Positions 5,250 through 13,925 of a stretch of DNA of 64,000 nucleotides are shown here, piece by piece. The DNA is taken from contig NZ_CP115396.1 of NCBI RefSeq assembly GCF_027625995.1, forward strand, positions 744,001 through 808,000. Reading direction: 5' to 3'. How positions within the stretch are numbered: position 1 is the first letter of the stretch; every line of letters starts with the position of its first letter. This DNA is from Hymenobacter yonginensis. Its GTDB lineage: Bacteria > Bacteroidota > Bacteroidia > Cytophagales > Hymenobacteraceae. The position numbers were made by a program, and so were the translations under genes. Below the pieces are notes generated by a model. It had not been told where the DNA came from. It did not search any database and was given only the letters and a program-made list of their open reading frames with translations.

Positions 5250-6737
5250 ATGAATTATAAATTCGACATCCCGGCGCAGTCCAAGTCCATCATCAAGGTG
5301 ATTGGCGTGGGTGGGGGCGGCTCCAACGCCGTGAACCACATGTTCAGCCAGGGCATCAAGGACGTGGAATTCGTCATTTGCAACACCGACAAGCAGGCGC
5401 TGGCATCCTCCACGGTGCCCAACCGCCTGCAAATCGGGCTGGACCTGACGGAAGGCCTCGGCGCCGGCGCCAACCCCGAGCGGGGTAAGCAGGCGGCCAT
5501 CGAGAGCCGCGAGCAGATTCGGGAGCTTCTCAGCAACGGCACCAAAATGGTGTTTATCACGGCCGGTATGGGCGGTGGTACGGGCACCGGTGCGGCGCCG
5601 GTTATTGCCAAGGTGGCCAAGGAGCTGGGCATCCTCACGGTGGGGATAGTGACGGCTCCGTTCATGTTCGAGGGTAAAAAGAAGCGCCAGCAGGCCGAGC
5701 ACGGCATCAAGGAGCTCAGCGAGAACTGCGACACCGTACTAGTGATTCTTAACGATAAGCTGCGCGAGATTTACGGCAACCTGCCCATCCGCTCGGCCTT
5801 CGCCAAAGCCGATAACGTGCTGAGCACGGCCGCCAAGTCCATTGCCGAAATCATCACGGTGACGGCCGACGTGAACGTGGACTTCGAGGACGTGAAAACG
5901 GTGATGAAGGACAGTGGCGCCGCCGTAATGGGCAGCAGCATCACGGAAGGCGAAAACCGCGCCCGCCGTGCGGCCGAGGAAGCCCTGGCTTCGCCGCTGC
6001 TCAACAACACCGACATTCACGGTGCCCAGCGCATCCTGCTCAGCATCATGTCCGGCGACCAGGCCGAGCTGGAAATGGACGAGCTGACCGAAATTACGGA
6101 GTGCATCCAAGACAAAGCGGGCCAGAACGCCGAGGTGATTTTTGGCCACGGCATCGACGCCACGCTGGGCCAGAGCATCCGCGTGACGGTAATTGCCACG
6201 GGCTTTGCCCGCGAGGCGCACACCATCACGGCGGTGCCGGTGCGGGAAGAGGAGCCGGCGTTGCCGCAGCCCGAGCCACAGCTGAACGTGTTCAACAAGG
6301 AGCCGCTGGACGTGTCGTCGGCCCCGGTGGTGCCGTCCTTCACCAGTTCTCCGCAGTCGGTTGCGGCCACGCCCGAGCCGGTAAAATTCGATCTGGAAAC
6401 GTCGCCGTACACGGGGCAGGTGCCGCCGGTGGCCGCGCCTTCGTCGCCGGCTCCCGAGCCGGTGGTGTACCAGGCTACCCAGCCCGCGCCGCCTATTGCC
6501 GGCCGCCCCGCCATCGACGCCCGCGCCGATGAGCGCCGCCGCCGCCTGCAGGAACTCAGCAATGGTCTCACCAACGACGCCATCAAGGACCAGCTGGAAA
6601 CGCCGGCCTACCTGCGCCGCCAAGTGAAGCTGGAAAACGTGACGCCCTCTTCGGAGCGCAACATCAGCCGCTTCAACCTTTCCGACGACAACGAGCTGCT
6701 GGGCGATAACCGCTTCCTGCACGACAACGTCGACTAA
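5250..6737 (+). CDS. ftsZ: Cell division GTPase FtsZ
   Basis: FtsZ is the tubulin-like GTPase that forms the Z ring. The 495-residue protein has the nucleotide-binding GVGGGGSNAV (about residues 20-29), the tubulin signature GGGTGTGAAP (about 109-118) and the T7-loop segment NVDFEDV (about 209-215). After about residue 330 comes a long Pro/Ala-rich linker, and the end carries a conserved PAYLRRQ peptide typical of Bacteroidota FtsZ, followed by an acidic tail. It is the last gene of the dcw run and ends just before a strong hairpin. Confidence 0.98.
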   Translation: MNYKFDIPAQSKSIIKVIGVGGGGSNAVNHMFSQGIKDVEFVICNTDKQALASSTVPNRLQIGLDLTEGLGAGANPERGKQAAIESREQIRELLSNGTKMVFITAGMGGGTGTGAAPVIAKVAKELGILTVGIVTAPFMFEGKKKRQQAEHGIKELSENCDTVLVILNDKLREIYGNLPIRSAFAKADNVLSTAAKSIAEIITVTADVNVDFEDVKTVMKDSGAAVMGSSITEGENRARRAAEEALASPLLNNTDIHGAQRILLSIMSGDQAELEMDELTEITECIQDKAGQNAEVIFGHGIDATLGQSIRVTVIATGFAREAHTITAVPVREEEPALPQPEPQLNVFNKEPLDVSSAPVVPSFTSSPQSVAATPEPVKFDLETSPYTGQVPPVAAPSSPAPEPVVYQATQPAPPIAGRPAIDARADERRRRLQELSNGLTNDAIKDQLETPAYLRRQVKLENVTPSSERNISRFNLSDDNELLGDNRFLHDNVD

Positions 6738-6806: not shown

Positions 6807-7028
6807 CTACCGGCGCGGGGCCGACAGCGGTACGGAGTCGAGCCGGGTGCTGTCGGCTGTGGGGGAGTAGCGCGGAGCGGCAGGCTCCCGGTCGGGGCTG
6901 AGCTGGTTGTGCGAGGCCACCGAGCAGGCTCCCAGCAGCAACGCCAGCCCGGCGCCCAGCAGCGCGCCGCCAAACGGCCGAGTCAGGATTTTGCGGCCAT
7001 CATTGCGGGGGAAGAAGAAAGGCTTCAA
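6807..7028 (-). CDS. Small predicted lipoprotein
   Basis: A 73-residue product with a basic N terminus, a hydrophobic helix (GALLGAGLALLLGACS) and a lipobox ending LLGAC at about residues 31-35. A short Ser/Pro/Arg-rich tail follows. No ATG is available; the frame opens with TTG at 7028, which overlaps the TGA of the upstream peroxidase gene as TTGA, consistent with translational coupling. Family unknown. It could be an accessory or anchor of the peroxidase. Confidence 0.6.
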   Translation of the reverse strand: MKPFFFPRNDGRKILTRPFGGALLGAGLALLLGACSVASHNQLSPDREPAAPRYSPTADSTRLDSVPLSAPRR

Positions 7029-8158
7029 AATGGATTGGAAAAGCGCGGATTCTGGATGAACGTAGAATCAGTGAGCGTTTTGAGAAAGGCTACGAGCTGG
7101 CGCTTCTCGGTGGCGGTAAGGTCGAGTTTGGTGCCGCCGTTGGTGTTGGACAGCAGCAGAATGGGGTCGACGTTGGGGCTGTTGGTGAGGATGTGCTCGT
7201 TGTAGTGGTCGACTACTTCTTCCAGCGTCCGGAACCGGCCGTCGTGCATGTAAGGTGCCGTCAGGGCAATGTTGCGTAGGGTGGGCACACGGAAGCGGCC
7301 CCGGTCAGCGTTCTGGCCGGTCACGTTGAAGCGGCCCTGGTCGGTGAAGGTCAGGTCGAGGCCGTTGTTGAAGTACTGGGTGGTGCCAAGGCGGCTGGCC
7401 GTGAACAGGAAGTTGTTGCCGTTGTGGCAATGGTCGCAGGAGCCGCCACGGGCCGTGGCAATGCCGCCTTCGCCCGGGTGATTGAAGAACAGCACGCGGC
7501 CGGCCCGCTCATCAACACTCAGCACGGCCTGCCCCAAGAGCGACTTTTCGTAGCGCGAATTCGACGAAATCAGGGTGCGCTCGAACTGCGCCAGCGCCTT
7601 GAGCACGTTGGCTTCGGTGATGGTAGCCGAGCCGAACGCCTGCGCAAACAGGGGCGGGTAGAGGCTGGTTTGCTGCAGCTTGCTCACGCCCACGGCCAGC
7701 GACTGGTGCAGCTCCACCGGGTTTTCGATGGGCGTGCGGGCCTGGGCTTCGAGGGTAGTGGCCGAGCCGTCCCAGTTCAGGTTGGGCTCCCAGAGCAGGT
7801 TCACCAGCGACATGGTGTTGCGTGGGTGCGGAATGCCGTCGACGCCAATGGCACGGGTGCGCCCATCGGTGAAGGCCTTGCTTTGCTGGTGGCAGCTTCC
7901 GCACGACATGGTGTTGGTGCTGGAAAGCCGGGTTTCGTAGAACAGCTTACGGCCCAACTCAATGCCTTCCACGGTGAGGGGGTTGTCGGCGGGCAGCGTC
8001 ACGCTTTGAGGCAGCTGCGAGGGCAGCACCAGCGTGTAGGGCGTAGCCGGGGCCGACGGCGGACTGGGCGGCGCCGGATCGTCCGGGTCTTTACCGCAGG
8101 CTGCAGCCAACAGCAACAAACCGAACAGCGGCAAACAGAAGCGCAGGCGGGTAGTCAT
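7025..8158 (-). CDS. Di-haem cytochrome c peroxidase / MauG-family lipoprotein
   Basis: Two CxxCH haem sites are visible, CGSCH (about residue 84) and CDHCH (about 240), with the MHDGRF segment typical of the bacterial cytochrome c peroxidase/MauG superfamily. The ATG at 8158 is preferred over 8194 because it gives a proper lipoprotein signal (LLLLAAAC, then CGKDPDDP). The mature protein should be lipid-anchored in the periplasm. It may reduce peroxide or oxidise a partner protein; the sequence does not decide. It is adjacent to, but separate from, the MbnH-like gene at 11-12 kb. Confidence 0.85.
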   Translation of the reverse strand: MTTRLRFCLPLFGLLLLAAACGKDPDDPAPPSPPSAPATPYTLVLPSQLPQSVTLPADNPLTVEGIELGRKLFYETRLSSTNTMSCGSCHQQSKAFTDGRTRAIGVDGIPHPRNTMSLVNLLWEPNLNWDGSATTLEAQARTPIENPVELHQSLAVGVSKLQQTSLYPPLFAQAFGSATITEANVLKALAQFERTLISSNSRYEKSLLGQAVLSVDERAGRVLFFNHPGEGGIATARGGSCDHCHNGNNFLFTASRLGTTQYFNNGLDLTFTDQGRFNVTGQNADRGRFRVPTLRNIALTAPYMHDGRFRTLEEVVDHYNEHILTNSPNVDPILLLSNTNGGTKLDLTATEKRQLVAFLKTLTDSTFIQNPRFSNPF

Positions 8159-8332
8159 CGGCAATGGGCAGAAAGCGAGGAAGAAGAGGTTCAAGATACG
8201 GAATATGCCTTCAACGTATCCGCCGGCCTGTTTCGTTTCCCGGCGCCGGCCGCGTGGCGTCGGCGGGAGTGTCTGCGCGCAGTTTGCGTACTTTGGGGCC
8301 GCCTACCGCAGTGGAGGCGTGTTTTAGCTGAC

Positions 8333-9613
8333 ATGATTATCCAGCCCCGAGCGCTGTTGCGCGAATATAGTTTGCTGCTGCTGTTCAGTTTCCGCTGGGT
8401 GCTGCTGAGCGCCATCGTGGGGGGACTGGCCGGTACGGCGTCGGCAGGCTTTCTGGTGGCGCTCGACTTCGTGACCAACTGGCGCGAACTGCATCCGTGG
8501 GTTATTGCGCTGCTGCCGGTCGGCGGCCTGCTGGTGGGGCTGCTCTACCACTACTGGGGTAAAAGCGTGGAAGGCGGCAACAACCTGCTGCTCGATGAAA
8601 TCAACCAGCCCGCCCAGCTCGTGCCGCTGCGCATGGTGCCGCTGGTGCTGGTGGGCACGCTGCTCACGCACCTGTTTGGCGGCTCGGCGGGCCGCGAGGG
8701 TACGGCCGTGCAAATGGGCGGCGCCCTCGCCGACCAGCTCAGCTGCTGGCCGCGCCTGATCCGGCGGCGGGAGCGGCGGTTTCTGCTGCTGGCCGGGCTG
8801 AGCGCCGGCTTCGCCTCGGTGTTCGGGACGCCGCTGGCCGGGGCGGTATTTGGGCTGGAAGTGGTGGTGCTGGGCCGCCTGCGTTACGATGCGCTGCTGC
8901 CCGCCTTCCTGGCCGCCGCCGCCGCCGACTACGTGACGCGGGCCTGGGGCGTGGGGCACACGGCGTATCCGCTGCTGGCAGTGCCTGCCTTGGCGCCGTT
9001 GCCGCTGCTGAGTGCGGCCGCCGCCGGGGTGGCGTTCGGGCTGGCCGGGCGTTTGTTTGCGGGCGCTACGCACGTCGTATCGGACTTCTACAAGCGCACG
9101 ATTGCTTGGCCGCCGCTGCGGCCGGTGGTGGGCGGGGCCGTGGTGGCGCTGCTGCTGTGGGCGGCGGGCACCACGCGCTACAGCGGGCTGGGCGTGCCCA
9201 CCATCGTGCAGGCGTTTCAGGAGCCGCTCCCGGTCTACGTTTTCGCCCTGAAAATCCTGTTTACCGCCCTCACGCTGGGGGCTGCGTTCAAAGGGGGCGA
9301 AGTGACGCCGCTGTTTTTCGTGGGTGCCACGCTGGGCAACGCCCTGGCGCTGGTGCTGCCGCTGCCCATGCCGCTGCTGGCTGGCCTGGGTTTCGCGGCG
9401 GTGTTTGCCGGAGCCGCTAATACGCCCCTGGCCTGCACGCTGCTGGCCATGGAGCTGTTCGGGCACGAGTGCGGCCTCTATGCCGGGCTGGCCTGCGTGG
9501 TGAGCTACCTGTTCTCGGGGCACCGCGGCATCTACGGCGCGCAGGTGGTCGGCCAGGCCAAGCACGGCCTCTGGCAGCGCCAGCAAGGCCGTCGCCTGCG
9601 GGATTTGCTGTAA
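8333..9613 (+). CDS. ClC-family chloride channel/transporter
   Basis: A 426-residue polytopic membrane protein with the ClC selectivity motifs: GSAGREGTAVQMG near residue 118 (the Glu of GREG is the gating glutamate position), a GxxSVFGTPLAG segment, and KGGEVTPLFFVGATLGN near 320. Length fits the core ClC fold without CBS domains. The much longer open frame upstream (from 7424) runs antisense through the peroxidase gene, so the ATG at 8333, starting MIIQPRALL, was chosen. It is divergent from the peroxidase gene. Whether it is a channel or a Cl-/H+ antiporter cannot be told. Confidence 0.92.
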   Translation: MIIQPRALLREYSLLLLFSFRWVLLSAIVGGLAGTASAGFLVALDFVTNWRELHPWVIALLPVGGLLVGLLYHYWGKSVEGGNNLLLDEINQPAQLVPLRMVPLVLVGTLLTHLFGGSAGREGTAVQMGGALADQLSCWPRLIRRRERRFLLLAGLSAGFASVFGTPLAGAVFGLEVVVLGRLRYDALLPAFLAAAAADYVTRAWGVGHTAYPLLAVPALAPLPLLSAAAAGVAFGLAGRLFAGATHVVSDFYKRTIAWPPLRPVVGGAVVALLLWAAGTTRYSGLGVPTIVQAFQEPLPVYVFALKILFTALTLGAAFKGGEVTPLFFVGATLGNALALVLPLPMPLLAGLGFAAVFAGAANTPLACTLLAMELFGHECGLYAGLACVVSYLFSGHRGIYGAQVVGQAKHGLWQRQQGRRLRDLL

Positions 9614-9845
9614 TTGGTGATGAAGTGATGGGGGGATGAGGTGAAACGTCATGCAGAGGCGTGGACGGAACAGCTTGCGTGGGCCTCACCCCCCGGCCCC
9701 CTCTCCCGTGGAGAGGGGGAGCCGGACGATTTTTCTCAGGCGACAGTGTTTTTTGGGATTAGCACGCTAGCGAGATTCCTCGCAAGCTCTGCATGACGTT
9801 CTTTCTTTACCTGTCACCTCATCACCTCATCACCTCATCACCAAT
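9613..9845. repeat. Composite convergent-gene repeat with octamer array
   Basis: An imperfect inverted repeat fills the gap between the ClC gene and the barrel gene. Outer arms are attggtgatga... (from 9613, the last base of the ClC stop) and ...tcatcaccaat (to 9845). Inside these, cgtcatgcagag (9648-9659 region) pairs with ctctgcatgacg (9787-9798). The core holds a 10-bp hairpin of ccccctctcc / ggagaggggg (9697-9719), a plausible terminator. The right arm contains about three tandem atcacctc octamers (9813-9839). Confidence 0.75.
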
Positions 9846-9858
9846 CCACCAAAACTCA

Positions 9859-10848
9859 TCACTTCAACAGATACTTGGTTTGCTTGAGGCTGTAGCCGAC
9901 GGCCAGCACCAGGCGGCCGGCGCTGGTGGGGTGGTCGGTGGGGGCGGTGTAGACGGGGAGCTGCACGCTGGCATTCAGCGACAGGTTTTTGTAGTACACA
10001 TCCAGGCCGGGGCCCAGCAGGGCGTTGTGCATGGCGTGCTCGCCGGTGAGGCGGCCCTCGAACATTTCGCCCTTGGTTTTCTCGTAGAACAGCTGCGCCG
10101 ACGGGTATAGCTGCCAGTTTTCGCCGAGCGGTACCCGGTAGAAGAGGTTGGCGAAAGCAGCTACACCGGGGGCCAGGCTTTCCTGAAACCGGTTGCTGAC
10201 TCCGCGGCGGTAGCTGGAGTTAAGGCTGAGGCCGAAGCTGCGGTAGCTGCCGATATAGTTGGCGTACACGAATCCGTCGGTGGTGCCGGTGCCGGGTTGC
10301 GTGAGGGTGGGGTAGCGCCGGCCGGCGGGGCTGCTACGGCGGAAGCTGCCGGTGGGCAGTTTCAGGCCGCCACCCACAATCAGGCGGCTCTGCACGCCGG
10401 CCGTTTCGATGTTGCGCAGCAGGTGGTAGCCCGCGAAAACCGTCACGTCGCCGAGGCCGCTGAGGTTAAGCTGCCGGCCGTTGATCTGCGACGTGTTCAT
10501 CACGTAGGGCACGAAGGCGTTCAGCTCCAAGCGCTTGGCCAGGAAGTACTTGCCGCGCATCTCCACCACCCGAAAGGCCTCAAAATCTGTGGGGTCGCCT
10601 TTATGGGAGTGAGTGTAGTCGTTGTCGGCGCCGTTGAGGGGGCGGGCCAGCAAGGGGCGGGCGCCGTTTGGGAAGAACTGCGGGTCTTGGCCCAGGGCTT
10701 GGTAGCCGTTGAAGATGCGGTAGCGGTGCATCAGCGAGAAGCTGCTCTGGTTGTCGTAGGGCGTGATGCCCATAAAGCAGCCGCAGATGTCGCAGGCCAG
10801 CATGGTCCGAGCCGGCAGGAGCACCAGCAGCAGTAGTATCTTTTTCAT
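9859..10848 (-). CDS. Predicted outer-membrane beta-barrel protein with CDICGC motif
   Basis: A 329-residue exported protein. The ATG at 10848 gives a short signal peptide, after which the mature protein begins at or next to CDICGC (about residues 18-23). The rest has alternating polar/hydrophobic strands, many aromatic residues and a GDVTVFAGYHLL-type strand pattern, ending in an aromatic/Leu strand typical of barrels. The three cysteines suggest metal binding. It is the last gene of the MbnP/MbnH-like cluster, so a role in copper or other metal handling at the outer membrane is inferred, not shown. The cysteine at position 18 could also be a weak lipobox. Confidence 0.7.
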   Translation of the reverse strand: MKKILLLLVLLPARTMLACDICGCFMGITPYDNQSSFSLMHRYRIFNGYQALGQDPQFFPNGARPLLARPLNGADNDYTHSHKGDPTDFEAFRVVEMRGKYFLAKRLELNAFVPYVMNTSQINGRQLNLSGLGDVTVFAGYHLLRNIETAGVQSRLIVGGGLKLPTGSFRRSSPAGRRYPTLTQPGTGTTDGFVYANYIGSYRSFGLSLNSSYRRGVSNRFQESLAPGVAAFANLFYRVPLGENWQLYPSAQLFYEKTKGEMFEGRLTGEHAMHNALLGPGLDVYYKNLSLNASVQLPVYTAPTDHPTSAGRLVLAVGYSLKQTKYLLK

Positions 10849-10928
10849 TGGAAATTTCAGAAGGAAAGGAGCCGACCCGCGCCTGATCCGGCCGATGTAT
10901 GGCCGTCGTGTCGGGTGGCAACATAGGA

Positions 10929-10959
10929 GCATCAGGCCGCATAGAAATCGGCCTGATGC
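10929..10959. other. Hairpin between MbnH-like and barrel genes
   Basis: A perfect 11-bp stem (10929-10939 with 10949-10959) with a 9-nt loop lies in the 139-bp gap between two codirectional minus-strand genes. It lacks a T-tract on the minus strand. It may tune expression of the barrel gene relative to the upstream genes or stabilise mRNA ends. Confidence 0.6.
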
Positions 10960-10987
10960 CTGCCTGTCAGGAGCTGGCAGCCGGGGG

Positions 10988-12040
10988 CTACTGCTCGGAA
11001 AGCTGCGGATTACGCAGAAACTCTTCGTCGGAAAGGGTGGCCAGAAACGCCAGCAGCTGGGTGCGCTCCGCAGAGGTGAGCGGAATTCCCGGCGCCTGGC
11101 CCGGCCGTCGCAGCTGCGCGTCCAGCGTGGCCGATTCCGTCATGCCGTGGTCGTAGTGGTCGAGCACCTCGCTGAGCGTGGCAAAGCGGCCATCGTGCAT
11201 GTAGGGCGCGGTGTGCAGCACGTTGCGCAGGCTCGGCACCTTGAACCGGCCCACATCAATGCTGCGCCCGGTGATGTGCGCCCGCCCCGAATCGGCGGTA
11301 AAGCGGCTGTCGAGCCCGTTGTTGCGAAACGACTCGTCGGTGAACAGCTCGCCGGCGTGGCAGCTGCCGCACTTCTGGCGCAGTACGGCCAGGCCGCCTA
11401 GTTCCTGCTCACTGAGGGTACCACCAGCTTCCTGCCGCACGTGGCGGTCGTAGCGGGAGTTAGCCGAAGTGAGAGCCGCCGTGAATTGCGCCAGCGCCCG
11501 CAGAAACTGGTAGGAATCAATGGCGCCGCTGCCGCCAAACACCTGCGCAAACCGGCGCCGGTAGCTGGCATCGGCGTTCAGCTTGCGCAGCACATTTTCC
11601 AGCGTTTCGTCCATCTCCACGGGGTTGGTGATGGGGGCCAGCGGCAGGGTTTCAATGTTGCTCGGGCCGCCGTCCCAGAAGAAATTGGGCTTCCAGCGCA
11701 GATTCTGCAGAGCCGGCGCGTTGCGCGTACCCAGCCGATTGTCTACGCCGTGGCTGAGTGTGTGCCCGGCGTGGGCAAACGCCACGAACTGCTGGTGGCA
11801 GCTGCCGCACGACACGTCGCCCGTGCGCGACAGGCGCGGGTCGTAGAACAGGCTACGGCCCAGCTCAAAAGCGGCGCGGGTGGGCGGGTTTTTCTCCGGC
11901 CCATACACCGGCACGGGGAAGTTGCCCGGCACCTGGGTGCCGGGCACTTCGCCTATGGGGGCCACATCGGCATCGGGCTGGCAGCCACTGGCTGACAGCA
12001 TCACCAGTAGGCCGTAGCAGATCTGTAGCGGCTTCTTCAT
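10988..12040 (-). CDS. MbnH-like di-haem enzyme (MauG family)
   Basis: A 350-residue exported protein with two CxxCH sites (CGSCH at about residues 76 and 222) and the MHDGRFATL segment of the bacterial di-haem peroxidase/MauG superfamily. The ATG at 12040 is preferred to GTG at 12052 and starts a signal sequence with a lipobox-like SASGC. It lies 21 bp downstream of an MbnP-like gene. In methanotrophs the paired MauG-family enzyme MbnH oxidises a tryptophan of MbnP to kynurenine; that pairing is established knowledge, its transfer to this gene is inference. Confidence 0.8.
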   Translation of the reverse strand: MKKPLQICYGLLVMLSASGCQPDADVAPIGEVPGTQVPGNFPVPVYGPEKNPPTRAAFELGRSLFYDPRLSRTGDVSCGSCHQQFVAFAHAGHTLSHGVDNRLGTRNAPALQNLRWKPNFFWDGGPSNIETLPLAPITNPVEMDETLENVLRKLNADASYRRRFAQVFGGSGAIDSYQFLRALAQFTAALTSANSRYDRHVRQEAGGTLSEQELGGLAVLRQKCGSCHAGELFTDESFRNNGLDSRFTADSGRAHITGRSIDVGRFKVPSLRNVLHTAPYMHDGRFATLSEVLDHYDHGMTESATLDAQLRRPGQAPGIPLTSAERTQLLAFLATLSDEEFLRNPQLSEQ

Positions 12041-12061
12041 GGAAGCAAGCACCGGGACCGG

Positions 12062-12826
12062 CTAGTTGCCGTGGATATGGTCGACGGTGAACATGCCCGC
12101 CGCCTGGTTATTGGCGACCAGCACCGAGCCGGGGCCTCCCATGCTGTTGCTGAGCGTGGCAAACCGGATGGTGTTGGGGCCCGAGAACATCTTCAGCACG
12201 TTGGCCTTGAGGTGTACCTCCGGCGTGCGCCCGTCGCGGATCTGGATGGTGGCCCCGTTCAACGTAGGCGAAACCGTCCGGATGGTGTTGTTAGGGCTTT
12301 TGAAGCCGCCAATGTGAAACACGATGGCACCGTTGCTGGCCTGCGGCGAGCGGCCTTCCAGCTTGGTGTAGATGTAGCCCGAGTTCCAGCTCCAGAACAT
12401 GTCGCCGGGAGCCAGCGCGCCAGTCTGCACGCCGGATACGTTGCGGGCGCTGTCTACCCCAATCGTGAACGTGAGGCCGGTATAGTCGCCGGTGGGGATG
12501 TTGGGGATAGAGAAGGTTTTGGACGCCGGCAGCGCCTCATCAATGAGGTAGTAGCTCTCAGGCTGCACGAATTCCGTGCCGTCGGCCTTCTTGAGCTTGA
12601 TGTTGGAAATGTAGTAGCGGAAGGTGCTGACCGTGAACTGGTCACCGGCGGGCGTCTGGTAGGGCGTGGCGCTGTTGAGCTGCAGGGCCGACGTGCCCAC
12701 TACGTTTTCAAACTCCAGGCTCATCTTGCCCAGACTCGGCACGTCGTCGTCCTTGTCACAGGAGGAAAGCGAGGTAGTGGCGGCAAAAAGGGACAGGCAC
12801 AGCGTGGTGTATTTCAGAAATTTCAT
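12062..12826 (-). CDS. MbnP-like copper-associated periplasmic protein
   Basis: A 254-residue lipoprotein (signal to SLSSC at about residues 19-23, followed by an acidic DKDDD). The body matches the MbnP family: an SxxRYYISNIKL strand, a VDSARNVSG segment and the diagnostic tryptophan-rich GDMFWSWNSGYIY at about 141-153, then a KLEG motif, and a histidine-containing end DHIHGN. MbnP proteins bind copper in the periplasm after a tryptophan is modified by a di-haem partner. The MbnH-like gene follows directly, which strongly supports the call. The tryptophan at about 144 or 146 is the candidate site. Confidence 0.82.
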   Translation of the reverse strand: MKFLKYTTLCLSLFAATTSLSSCDKDDDVPSLGKMSLEFENVVGTSALQLNSATPYQTPAGDQFTVSTFRYYISNIKLKKADGTEFVQPESYYLIDEALPASKTFSIPNIPTGDYTGLTFTIGVDSARNVSGVQTGALAPGDMFWSWNSGYIYTKLEGRSPQASNGAIVFHIGGFKSPNNTIRTVSPTLNGATIQIRDGRTPEVHLKANVLKMFSGPNTIRFATLSNSMGGPGSVLVANNQAAGMFTVDHIHGN

Positions 12827-12939
12827 CTTTCAGGGCGTAAATCAGGGATAAGCAAACGACGTAGCCGCTACTCAGCCAGCGGCTGGTAGTGTGCTACAAA
12901 CGAACGAAGCCCAGAAACAAGGCTTCGCTAAGTCGAAAA

Positions 12940-13320
12940 TCAGGCCCTGAAAGCCGGAGGATGAAACACGCCGTGAACCGGCGAAAACGCATACTGCGCC
13001 GCGGCCGACGGGGCGTACTGCCGCGCCGAAAGGGGCACCCGCACGGGTGTGGACACCCGCAACTGGAAAGGCACCACCACCTCGTACTTCACTTTGGCAA
13101 AGCCGGCGCCGGGCGCTTTGCTTTCCGTATCGGAAGCTTTGCGCAGCTGCTTGGCCAGATGGCATTTGCCGTTACACTTCAGCTGAGGCTTGTCCTTGTT
13201 GACGCAGAACAACTCCGTGATGCGCGCCTTATGCACCTGATAGTCCACGACGATGACCTCCCGACTGAATGTCTGGAGGAGCATCAAAGCAGCCAGGAAA
13301 AAAGCCAGGAAGCGCGTCAT
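12940..13320 (-). CDS. Small exported protein with CNGKCHL motif
   Basis: A 126-residue protein starting at ATG 13320 (MTRFLAFFLAALMLL...), which gives a clear signal peptide or membrane anchor. A CxxxxxxxxCNGKCHLAKQL region at about residues 38-56 has three cysteines and a histidine spaced like a metal-binding site. Similar short proteins are widespread in Bacteroidota but I know no assigned function. It precedes the MbnP-like gene by 113 bp on the same strand, so it may lead the metal cluster. The C-terminal half is Ala/Pro/Val-rich. Confidence 0.72.
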   Translation of the reverse strand: MTRFLAFFLAALMLLQTFSREVIVVDYQVHKARITELFCVNKDKPQLKCNGKCHLAKQLRKASDTESKAPGAGFAKVKYEVVVPFQLRVSTPVRVPLSARQYAPSAAAQYAFSPVHGVFHPPAFRA

Positions 13321-13347
13321 AGCAAGGGAAAAACCCGCAGTACGGAG

Positions 13348-13355
13348 CAAATGTA
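13348..13355 (-). promoter_or_regulatory. Candidate -7 box for the metal cluster (TACATTTG)
   Basis: On the minus strand the sequence reads TACATTTG, an exact match to TAnnTTTG, 27 nt before the ATG of the CNGKCHL protein gene. A convincing -33 TTG is not visible, so this is only a candidate. Confidence 0.45.
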
Positions 13356-13397
13356 CGCGCCGTAGTCTTAATTACCGCCCGCTACGCTCCGCGTATC

Positions 13398-13925
13398 CTA
13401 GCTGGCGACCAGCTGGGCCACTTGCTCCCGCAACAGTTGCGTGTAGAACTCATTGGTGAGCTGACCTTCGTCGGTGAGGTGCTGGTCGATGAAGGGCAGG
13501 CGCACACGGGCCGGCACCACGGTAGTGTTGAGGTACATGAGCACGTCGGTGAGGTGGCTCAGAGCCAGCAGACCGCCTTGCGCCCCGGTGCCCAGGCCCA
13601 CCAGCGCGGCCTTCTTGCCCCGGATACCGCCTTTGTAGGGCAGGCCGTCAATAAACGTCTTGAGCACGCCTGGAAACGAGCAGTTGTACTCCGGCACCAC
13701 AAACACCAGCTTATCCGCGGCCTCAGCCTGAACGGCGAGGCGATTGAAGGCGTCGTGCCGGCCGGTGTTGTGGTAGAGCGCCGACACGCTGACGTCGGCG
13801 GGCAGCTCTACCAGGTCCAGAATCTGGTGCTCAGCGTGCAGCTCACTCAGCAGACCGGCGTAGAGGTTAGCAATGCGGCGGGCGCGGGAATCGGGGCGGT
13901 TGGTACCGACAATGATGGTAATCAT
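13398..13925 (-). CDS. NAD(P)H-dependent FMN reductase family protein
   Basis: A 175-residue flavodoxin-like protein of the NADPH-dependent FMN reductase/azoreductase type. The phosphate-binding loop GTNRPDSRA lies at about residues 8-16 and the flavin-binding motif PEYNCSFPGVLK at about 82-93. Likely a cytosolic FMN enzyme reducing flavins, quinones or azo compounds; the exact substrate cannot be read. It stands alone on the minus strand, with the strong sdh terminator upstream of it. Confidence 0.85.
   Translation of the reverse strand: MITIIVGTNRPDSRARRIANLYAGLLSELHAEHQILDLVELPADVSVSALYHNTGRHDAFNRLAVQAEAADKLVFVVPEYNCSFPGVLKTFIDGLPYKGGIRGKKAALVGLGTGAQGGLLALSHLTDVLMYLNTTVVPARVRLPFIDQHLTDEGQLTNEFYTQLLREQVAQLVAS

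Follow-up and report, generated by a model that had tools for sequence, protein, structure and literature searches.

The gene cluster

The 64-kb stretch of the Hymenobacter yonginensis genome analysed here (the window; 64,000 nucleotides (nt) in full length) harbours a quartet of minus-strand genes at positions 9859-13320, which encode a small, exported-looking cysteine protein (the Cys protein), an MbnP-family lipoprotein, an MbnH-family di-haem lipoprotein and an outer-membrane β-barrel (Table 1). The list of open reading frames and their translations places all four genes where an earlier interpretation of the letters of the window, termed here the sequence-only reading, had put them. We interpret the quartet, with a probability of about 0.72, as a copper-acquisition operon of the order leader peptide, MbnP, MbnH and barrel, the first gene of which codes for a copper-sensing, ribosome-stalling leader. 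This reading builds on observed features, namely the gene content, the conserved gene order, the conserved residues and the placement of a promoter element.

Table 1. Features of the copper-type cluster and its vicinity in the window
Feature	Positions	Strand	Description
Cys gene	12940..13320	-	126 residues; CNGKCHL; candidate copper-sensing leader peptide of the CruR/CutF type
FHPP codons (F119-H120-P121-P122)	12955..12966	-	candidate ribosome-arrest motif
Cys-MbnP gap	12827..12939	-	113 nt; without TAnnTTTG; predicted hairpins at ~12903-12929 and ~12861-12897
Promoter element TACATTTG	13348..13355	-	fits TAnnTTTG; 35 nt 5' of the Cys-gene ATG
MbnP-family lipoprotein	12062..12826	-	254 residues; lipobox SLSSC, then DKDDD; PF20243; fold match 7l6g
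FWSW codons (F144-W145-S146-W147 of MbnP)	12386..12397	-	conserved tryptophans
MbnH-family di-haem lipoprotein	10988..12040	-	two CGSCH motifs (11795-11809 and 11357-11371)
Outer-membrane β-barrel	9859..10848	-	CxxCxC at the mature N-terminus (CDICGC), codons 10777-10794
Second MbnH-family di-haem protein	7025..8194	-	389 residues; TIGR04039, 294.6 bits

A cysteine protein with a C-terminal diproline

The Cys protein matches no Pfam family in a profile search. Its layout comprises a hydrophobic N-terminal segment (identified by eye), three cysteines in the arrangement C39-x9-C49-x3-C53, a variable middle part and the motif FHPP, which is followed by four residues and the stop. In an alignment of 23 family members M1, C39, C49, C53, P121 and P122 are invariant, and the middle part is poorly conserved. 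Among 164 distinct homologues from all sets, 161 contain a C-terminal diproline at most 10 residues from the end, usually with two to four residues left until the stop. The residue pair ahead of the diproline is FH in 86 and FR in 36 of these 161 proteins, and the spacing from CxxxC to the diproline spans 62-71 residues, with 64-68 residues in 145 cases. Since the homologue sets share species in part (e.g., L044 and L181) and merging was confined to identical sequences, these counts do not represent independent events. By comparison, a diproline within the last ten residues is found in none of 64 MbnP and none of 32 barrel frames, in 4 of 74 MbnH frames, and in 114 of 1784 open frames of at least 100 residues taken as background.

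The three exceptions among the homologues are L054, L177 and L180, the latter two with 13 and 17 residues after the diproline. In L054 the Cys frame (5932-6348) loses the diproline end near the C-terminus, and close relatives retain it. In a sample of 296 genomes of the phylum, 119 encode a family member. The phylum is presumably the Bacteroidota, since the nearest named relatives are Hymenobacter (best MbnP identity 74%).

The exported-looking N-terminus and the three invariant cysteines would also suit a small exported copper chaperone or scavenger acting as a protein beside MbnP, and R. capsulatus CutF was first taken for a chaperone as well (PMC9426467). Yet, such a function leaves unexplained the invariant C-terminal diproline, its near-fixed spacing over a variable middle part and the occurrence of the Cys gene as the first gene of quite different operons, and we regard it as improbable. 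The sequence-only reading had proposed the Cys protein and the barrel as new partners in copper handling. The recurrence of the barrel (see below) agrees with this proposal; the Cys gene, on the other hand, is better viewed as a regulatory leader than as an effector, because of its invariant diproline, its first-gene position and its occurrence in other copper-type operons.

The Cys gene at the head of operons

The motif TAnnTTTG, which we take to be the -7 promoter element of Bacteroidota, is located at most 130 nt upstream of the Cys gene in 29 of 39 homologues, the window included (2.1 expected), and precedes the gene in 88 of 131 distinct upstream regions from two other sets (7.1 expected), where expectations are based on single-base shuffles. 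The distance to the Cys start is mostly 15-40 nt. In the gaps between the Cys and MbnP genes the element occurs in 1 of 25 cases in one set and 1 of 103 in another (5.8 expected for the 103). The position of the element suggests that transcription starts just 5' of the Cys gene. Searches for a sigma-70 type promoter in 12700-13500 and for Rfam elements in 9600-13700 retrieved none.

A survey centred on the Cys gene covered 60 loci with 62 Cys genes. They came from 58 of the 119 matching genomes, and better-scoring matches made up most of the selection. The next same-strand gene of at least 170 residues encodes MbnP in 20 cases, the barrel in six and another protein in 35, and in one case the contig ends before such a gene. 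The next gene is at most 350 nt away in 56 of 61 cases. According to Pfam, the 33 distinct “other” genes include 24 with a TonB plug domain, two with YtkA and one with SCO1/SenC; moreover, where the first gene has at least 600 residues, the second encodes a PepSY_TM protein in 8 of 17 distinct cases. In six loci from the genus of the nearest genome the Cys gene points away from MbnP; two long frames come after it, one of 781-787 residues (626 in L054) and then one of 541-592 residues. A Pfam scan of these loci confirmed every frame scanned, i.e., the receptors of L050 and L061 and the PepSY_TM proteins of L050, L054, L063 and L070. Thus, by the surveys as well as the promoter element, the Cys gene is the first gene of copper-type operons, as is the leader CruR.

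L124 and L148 contain a tandem pair of Cys leader genes 5' of a single receptor-length gene, and in L151, L177 and L179 more distant barrels are located directly 3' of the Cys gene. The barrels of L151 and L179 are devoid of CxxCxC and have His/Met-bearing starts instead.

MbnP, MbnH and the tryptophan motif

The second gene product had been read as an MbnP-like lipoprotein with an FWSW motif, and profile searches substantiate this assignment. The protein matches PF20243 in Pfam (E 1.9e-60; 204.4 bits, cut-off 27), although it stays at 56.1 bits below the cut-off of 140 for the stricter NCBIfam equivalog TIGR04052 (MbnP_like_WxW). Its only cysteines are residues 10 (signal) and 23 (lipobox), and a four-Cys motif is lacking. 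As a single sequence MbnP found no match among PDB sequences; as a profile it matches 7l6g weakly (E 0.019), with the WxW motifs in line. The structural model has a mean predicted local distance difference test score (pLDDT) of 84.8, with low values at residues ~131-149, including the end of the WxW motif. Its six matches with E <0.001 are all chains of 7l6g, the Methylosinus MbnP (template modelling (TM) score 0.53-0.57 on the query), which is the sole strong PDB fold match. The motif tryptophans are conserved, W145 in 87 of 87 and W147 in 82 of 87 MbnP genes.

The adjoining di-haem protein (10988-12040) likewise proves to be MbnH-like. It matches PF03150 (CCP_MauG) with E 5.8e-51 and the “MbnH family” TIGR04039 with 224.3 bits, below the cut-off of 362.85, which is passed in none of the 12 relatives' genomes searched. 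The best PDB sequence match is the “Di-heme enzyme” 6e1c (E 2.7e-44), presumably from Methylosinus trichosporium, which ranks above cytochrome c peroxidases and MauG. Two CxxCH motifs are present in all 190 MbnH-family homologues. A tyrosine after the PYxHDG motif, which we take to be the place of the axial tyrosine of MauG, was detected by pattern in 176 of the 190 and by eye in eight inspected among the other 14.

The sequence-only reading overlooked a second MbnH-family gene at 7025-8194, which is closer to TIGR04039 than the operon copy but also falls short of the cut-off. A long plus-strand frame separates this gene from the barrel, and therefore, it probably lies outside the operon transcript. 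Several relatives have an MbnH gene of this type close to the barrel; in others, such a gene is the sole MbnH-type neighbour of MbnP.

In MbnP a tryptophan is converted to kynurenine and copper is bound; work from 2021 reportedly showed the kynurenine. The WxW pair, the di-haem neighbour with two CxxCH motifs and the tyrosine, and the fold are consistent with tryptophan oxidation of the window MbnP. Alternatively, this MbnP might bind copper without such an oxidation, while MbnH has another role, such as peroxidase or electron transfer. In line with this possibility, MbnH is absent within 600 nt of 14 of 87 MbnP genes, though the genomes searched do contain MbnH-family matches in 12 of 12 cases, 11 of these from the 12 genomes with MbnH-less MbnP loci (G054 was left out; G017 has its match in the same locus beyond the barrel, and G051 has a weaker match only). 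The near invariance of WxW argues against this alternative, as does the finding that MbnH is missing from the vicinity of four of the five MbnP rows without the second tryptophan (Fisher p 0.002, related sequences), and we consider it unlikely.

The four rows in question read WxM (L059, L072 and L077) or MWFSN (L088). L084 was scored as Trp-less with MbnH, but its row reads WAGW and may reflect an alignment shift. L062 and L064 have no MbnH nearby and keep WxW in an altered setting. Counter to the pattern, L244 reads YWPM with MbnH2 next door, and WxW is kept without a nearby MbnH in ten MbnP proteins of the 87-gene set and two of a further set. A strict coupling of the second tryptophan to MbnH is ruled out as a rule by L244 and these proteins, and the link between loss of the second tryptophan and a missing MbnH is suggestive only. 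L198 (Hymenobacter negativus) contains, in tandem, a Cys-MbnP(WDM)-barrel and a Cys-MbnP(WxW)-MbnH arrangement. It shares its motif stretch with L059 and perhaps represents the same genome.

The mature start of MbnP, CDKDDD in the window, resembles the surface-export signal K-(D/E)2 of Bacteroidetes (PMC5080379). By a rough count, two or more acidic residues occur at 75 of 133 distinct MbnP starts. Since the lipobox pattern picks wrong places in some rows, the suggested surface export of MbnP draws on the DKDDD of the window and this rough count.

The barrel and conservation of the cluster

The fourth gene product had been described as a barrel whose mature end starts near CDICGC, and its AlphaFold2 model indeed adopts a β-barrel (mean pLDDT 83), with FapF and the COG4313 channel as the nearest structures and no Pfam match over cut-off. 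C19 and C22, which form the CxxC at the mature N-terminus, are invariant in both alignments. In L034 (6817-7798) and L041 (6965-7486) the barrel gene is split across several frames, representing a broken copy or an assembly error.

MbnP is found in 46 of 59 relatives' genomes, and 60 loci, covering 63 of the 64 MbnP matches listed, were compared. Same-strand Cys genes at a distance of at most 400 nt upstream occur in 27 loci, MbnH-type genes downstream in 44 and barrels up to 2.5 kb away in 27; 20 loci combine the three, and in six the Cys gene is on the opposite strand. By a looser rule, 25 loci contain both the Cys gene and the barrel, 30 contain neither and five only one (Fisher p 2e-11, related sequences). 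Hence, the barrel and the Cys gene co-occur, and the recurrence of both beside MbnP that the sequence-only reading anticipated is found, yet in part of the loci. A further set of 80 named loci (Hymenobacter, Pedobacter, Adhaeribacter and others) was chosen by MbnP similarity and hence favours near relatives. Here, the Cys gene is located just upstream of MbnP in 66 loci, and all 71 Cys genes end in a diproline at most 12 residues from the end.

Copper-sensing leader peptides and the proposed mechanism

CruR and CutF, both proteobacterial, are the worked-out copper-sensing leader peptides compared here. CruR of Bordetella pertussis is a copper-responsive upstream open reading frame of the DUF2946 type that heads the operon cruR-bfrG-bp2921. 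Its Cys pair is required for the copper response and the C-terminal RAPP for expression. When copper is scarce, the ribosome stalls at RAPP and reading of the operon continues; copper binding at CXXC frees the ribosome, and Rho ends transcription (PMC9426467). The arrest by CruR was shown in vitro (PMC12992588), and cruR starts more than 40% of crtA operons (PMC12914433). In the case of CutF, copper lengthens the stall and opens a stem-loop (PMC9973294).

For the Hymenobacter operon we infer ribosome arrest, copper sensing and its sign, kynurenine formation and transport along the following lines. The Cys protein would be made as an exported nascent chain, the cysteines of which would be outside the ribosome tunnel at the PP codons, since C-x9-C-x3-C is mostly located 64-68 residues ahead of F-[HR]-P-P. 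At low copper, the ribosome would stall at HPP, with MbnP, MbnH and the barrel still being expressed. Copper on the cysteines would free the arrest and turn the operon off, as in Bordetella CruR. MbnH would oxidise a WxW tryptophan of MbnP, probably to kynurenine, thereby creating a copper site; MbnP would catch copper at the cell surface, and the CxxCxC barrel would carry it through the outer membrane.

The CruR-like sign is favoured because the Cys-headed operons look like copper uptake. If the sign were opposite, as in CutF, copper would lengthen the stall and turn MbnP expression on, and the operon would serve copper detoxification or storage. CxxxC and PP are as in CutF, many Bacteroidota are on the CutF-like list (PMC9973294), and the short gap is predicted to fold more stably than shuffled versions: the 113 nt of the window fold into two hairpins with a z of -2.85, and 2 of 200 shuffles fold as well. 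However, the downstream genes are of the acquisition type (TonB receptors, PepSY_TM, MbnP), the methanotroph copper protein CorA is copper-repressible (PMC3912023), and CutF acts by way of a stem-loop over a Shine-Dalgarno site, whereas the excess structure observed here is not specific to the gap. Overall, a CutF-like sign appears hardly probable. The idea of a conserved RNA fold between the Cys and MbnP genes was rejected, as the gap aligns no further than the nearest species and its folding excess is unspecific.

Several observations weigh against a CruR-like leader at the head of the MbnP operon. In five of 61 cases, the Cys gene is separated from the next gene by more than 350 nt. Where MbnP has no Cys gene, TAnnTTTG is mostly missing too (present in 2 of 25; 1.2 expected), and this set therefore provides no positive control. 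The mean folding z is -1.75 after Cys genes, -1.78 after MbnP, -1.40 after the barrel and -0.81 after MbnH. Half of the relatives' MbnP loci (30/60) lack both the Cys gene and the barrel, which are therefore not essential to MbnP. Homology of the Cys family to DUF2946 was not detected: a Pfam search with an E limit of 10 and the HMMER filters on matched none of 23 members to DUF2946/CruR (PF11162), and hhalign against five weak same-phylum DUF2946 matches aligned just the two prolines. Finally, the motif is FHPP or FRPP, not RAPP or RGPP, and arrest by FHPP/FRPP is putative.

Comparison with known systems

The Cys gene resembles cruR in being small, exported-looking and first in its operon, and the encoded proteins share a cysteine metal motif and a diproline a few residues before the stop. 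Similar to CruR, the Cys family heads TonB receptor/PepSY_TM operons, the gene set of cruR-bfrG-bp2921, as well as MbnP/MbnH operons, and a long gap precedes the next gene (162 nt in CruR, 113 nt in the window). MbnPH-like genes are also among the CruR-headed operons, mostly in Proteobacteria (PMC9426467). In contrast to CruR, the Cys family has C-x9-C-x3-C rather than CxxC, F-[HR]-PP rather than RAPP, and a spacing of mostly 64-68 rather than 45 residues. The distribution differs as well, since DUF2946 occurs in 8 of 296 likewise sampled genomes of the phylum (five over its cut-off), as opposed to 119 of 296 for the Cys family. In a survey of RAPP/RGPP leaders, copper-related ones were missing from Bacteroidota, and TonB-related ones were found throughout Gram-negatives (PMC12992588).

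The Cys gene also complies with most filters of the CutF-like survey in PMC9973294: the protein has 126 residues (fewer than 150), contains CxxxC and carries PP four residues before the stop (within 15), and the same-strand MbnP gene follows after 113 nt (limit 1000 nt). That survey counted CutF-like proteins in many Bacteroidota and, in the parts consulted, gave no named family for them; its main text mentions neither MbnP nor methanobactin. The Cys family may already be an unnamed cluster of this survey. Among the matches listed, no open-access paper on this operon in Bacteroidota was found. The new findings comprise the F[HR]PP family and the constraints on its motifs, its location ahead of MbnP-MbnH-barrel, a CxxCxC barrel as a regular partner, and MbnP copies with a Trp-to-Met exchange.

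If the leader reading is true, the widespread F[HR]PP family would fill the Bacteroidota gap among copper-related leaders, provide Bacteroidota with copper control that involves no DNA-binding protein, and enlarge the natural set of arrest motifs. In a broader proposal, to which we assign even odds, these proteins would be phylum-wide nascent-chain copper sensors of Bacteroidota, with an F-[HR]-P-P arrest motif and no detectable relation to CruR, that control at least three copper-acquisition modules (MbnP-MbnH-barrel, TonB receptor-PepSY_TM and barrel alone). Where MbnP lies between leader and barrel without MbnH, the second WxW tryptophan would be exchanged for methionine (three of five such loci), a ready-made copper(I) ligand replacing the oxidised tryptophan. 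The Trp-to-Met copies constitute a natural test for which tryptophan MbnH modifies.

The barrel shares its fold with the COG4313 channel 4rl8 (TM score 0.59 on the query and 0.70 on the target), and FapF (5o67 and others) is also near. Unlike these proteins, to which identity amounts to 13-16%, this barrel family has an invariant CxxC at the mature N-terminus. The central pair resembles MbnP/MbnH of Methylosinus trichosporium (7l6g; 6e1c) with regard to the MbnP fold, the WxW in line and the adjoining di-haem partner. The window MbnP, however, lacks the four-Cys motif, and none of the four genes belongs to methanobactin biosynthesis. The stand-alone version named by the sequence-only reading is not new: occurrence of the MbnP/MbnH pair far outside methanobactin producers was reported in 2013 (PMC3621798). 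In contrast to the Methylosinus pair, the window operon adds a candidate leader peptide and a CxxCxC barrel, which can now be named as regular company of MbnP/MbnH.

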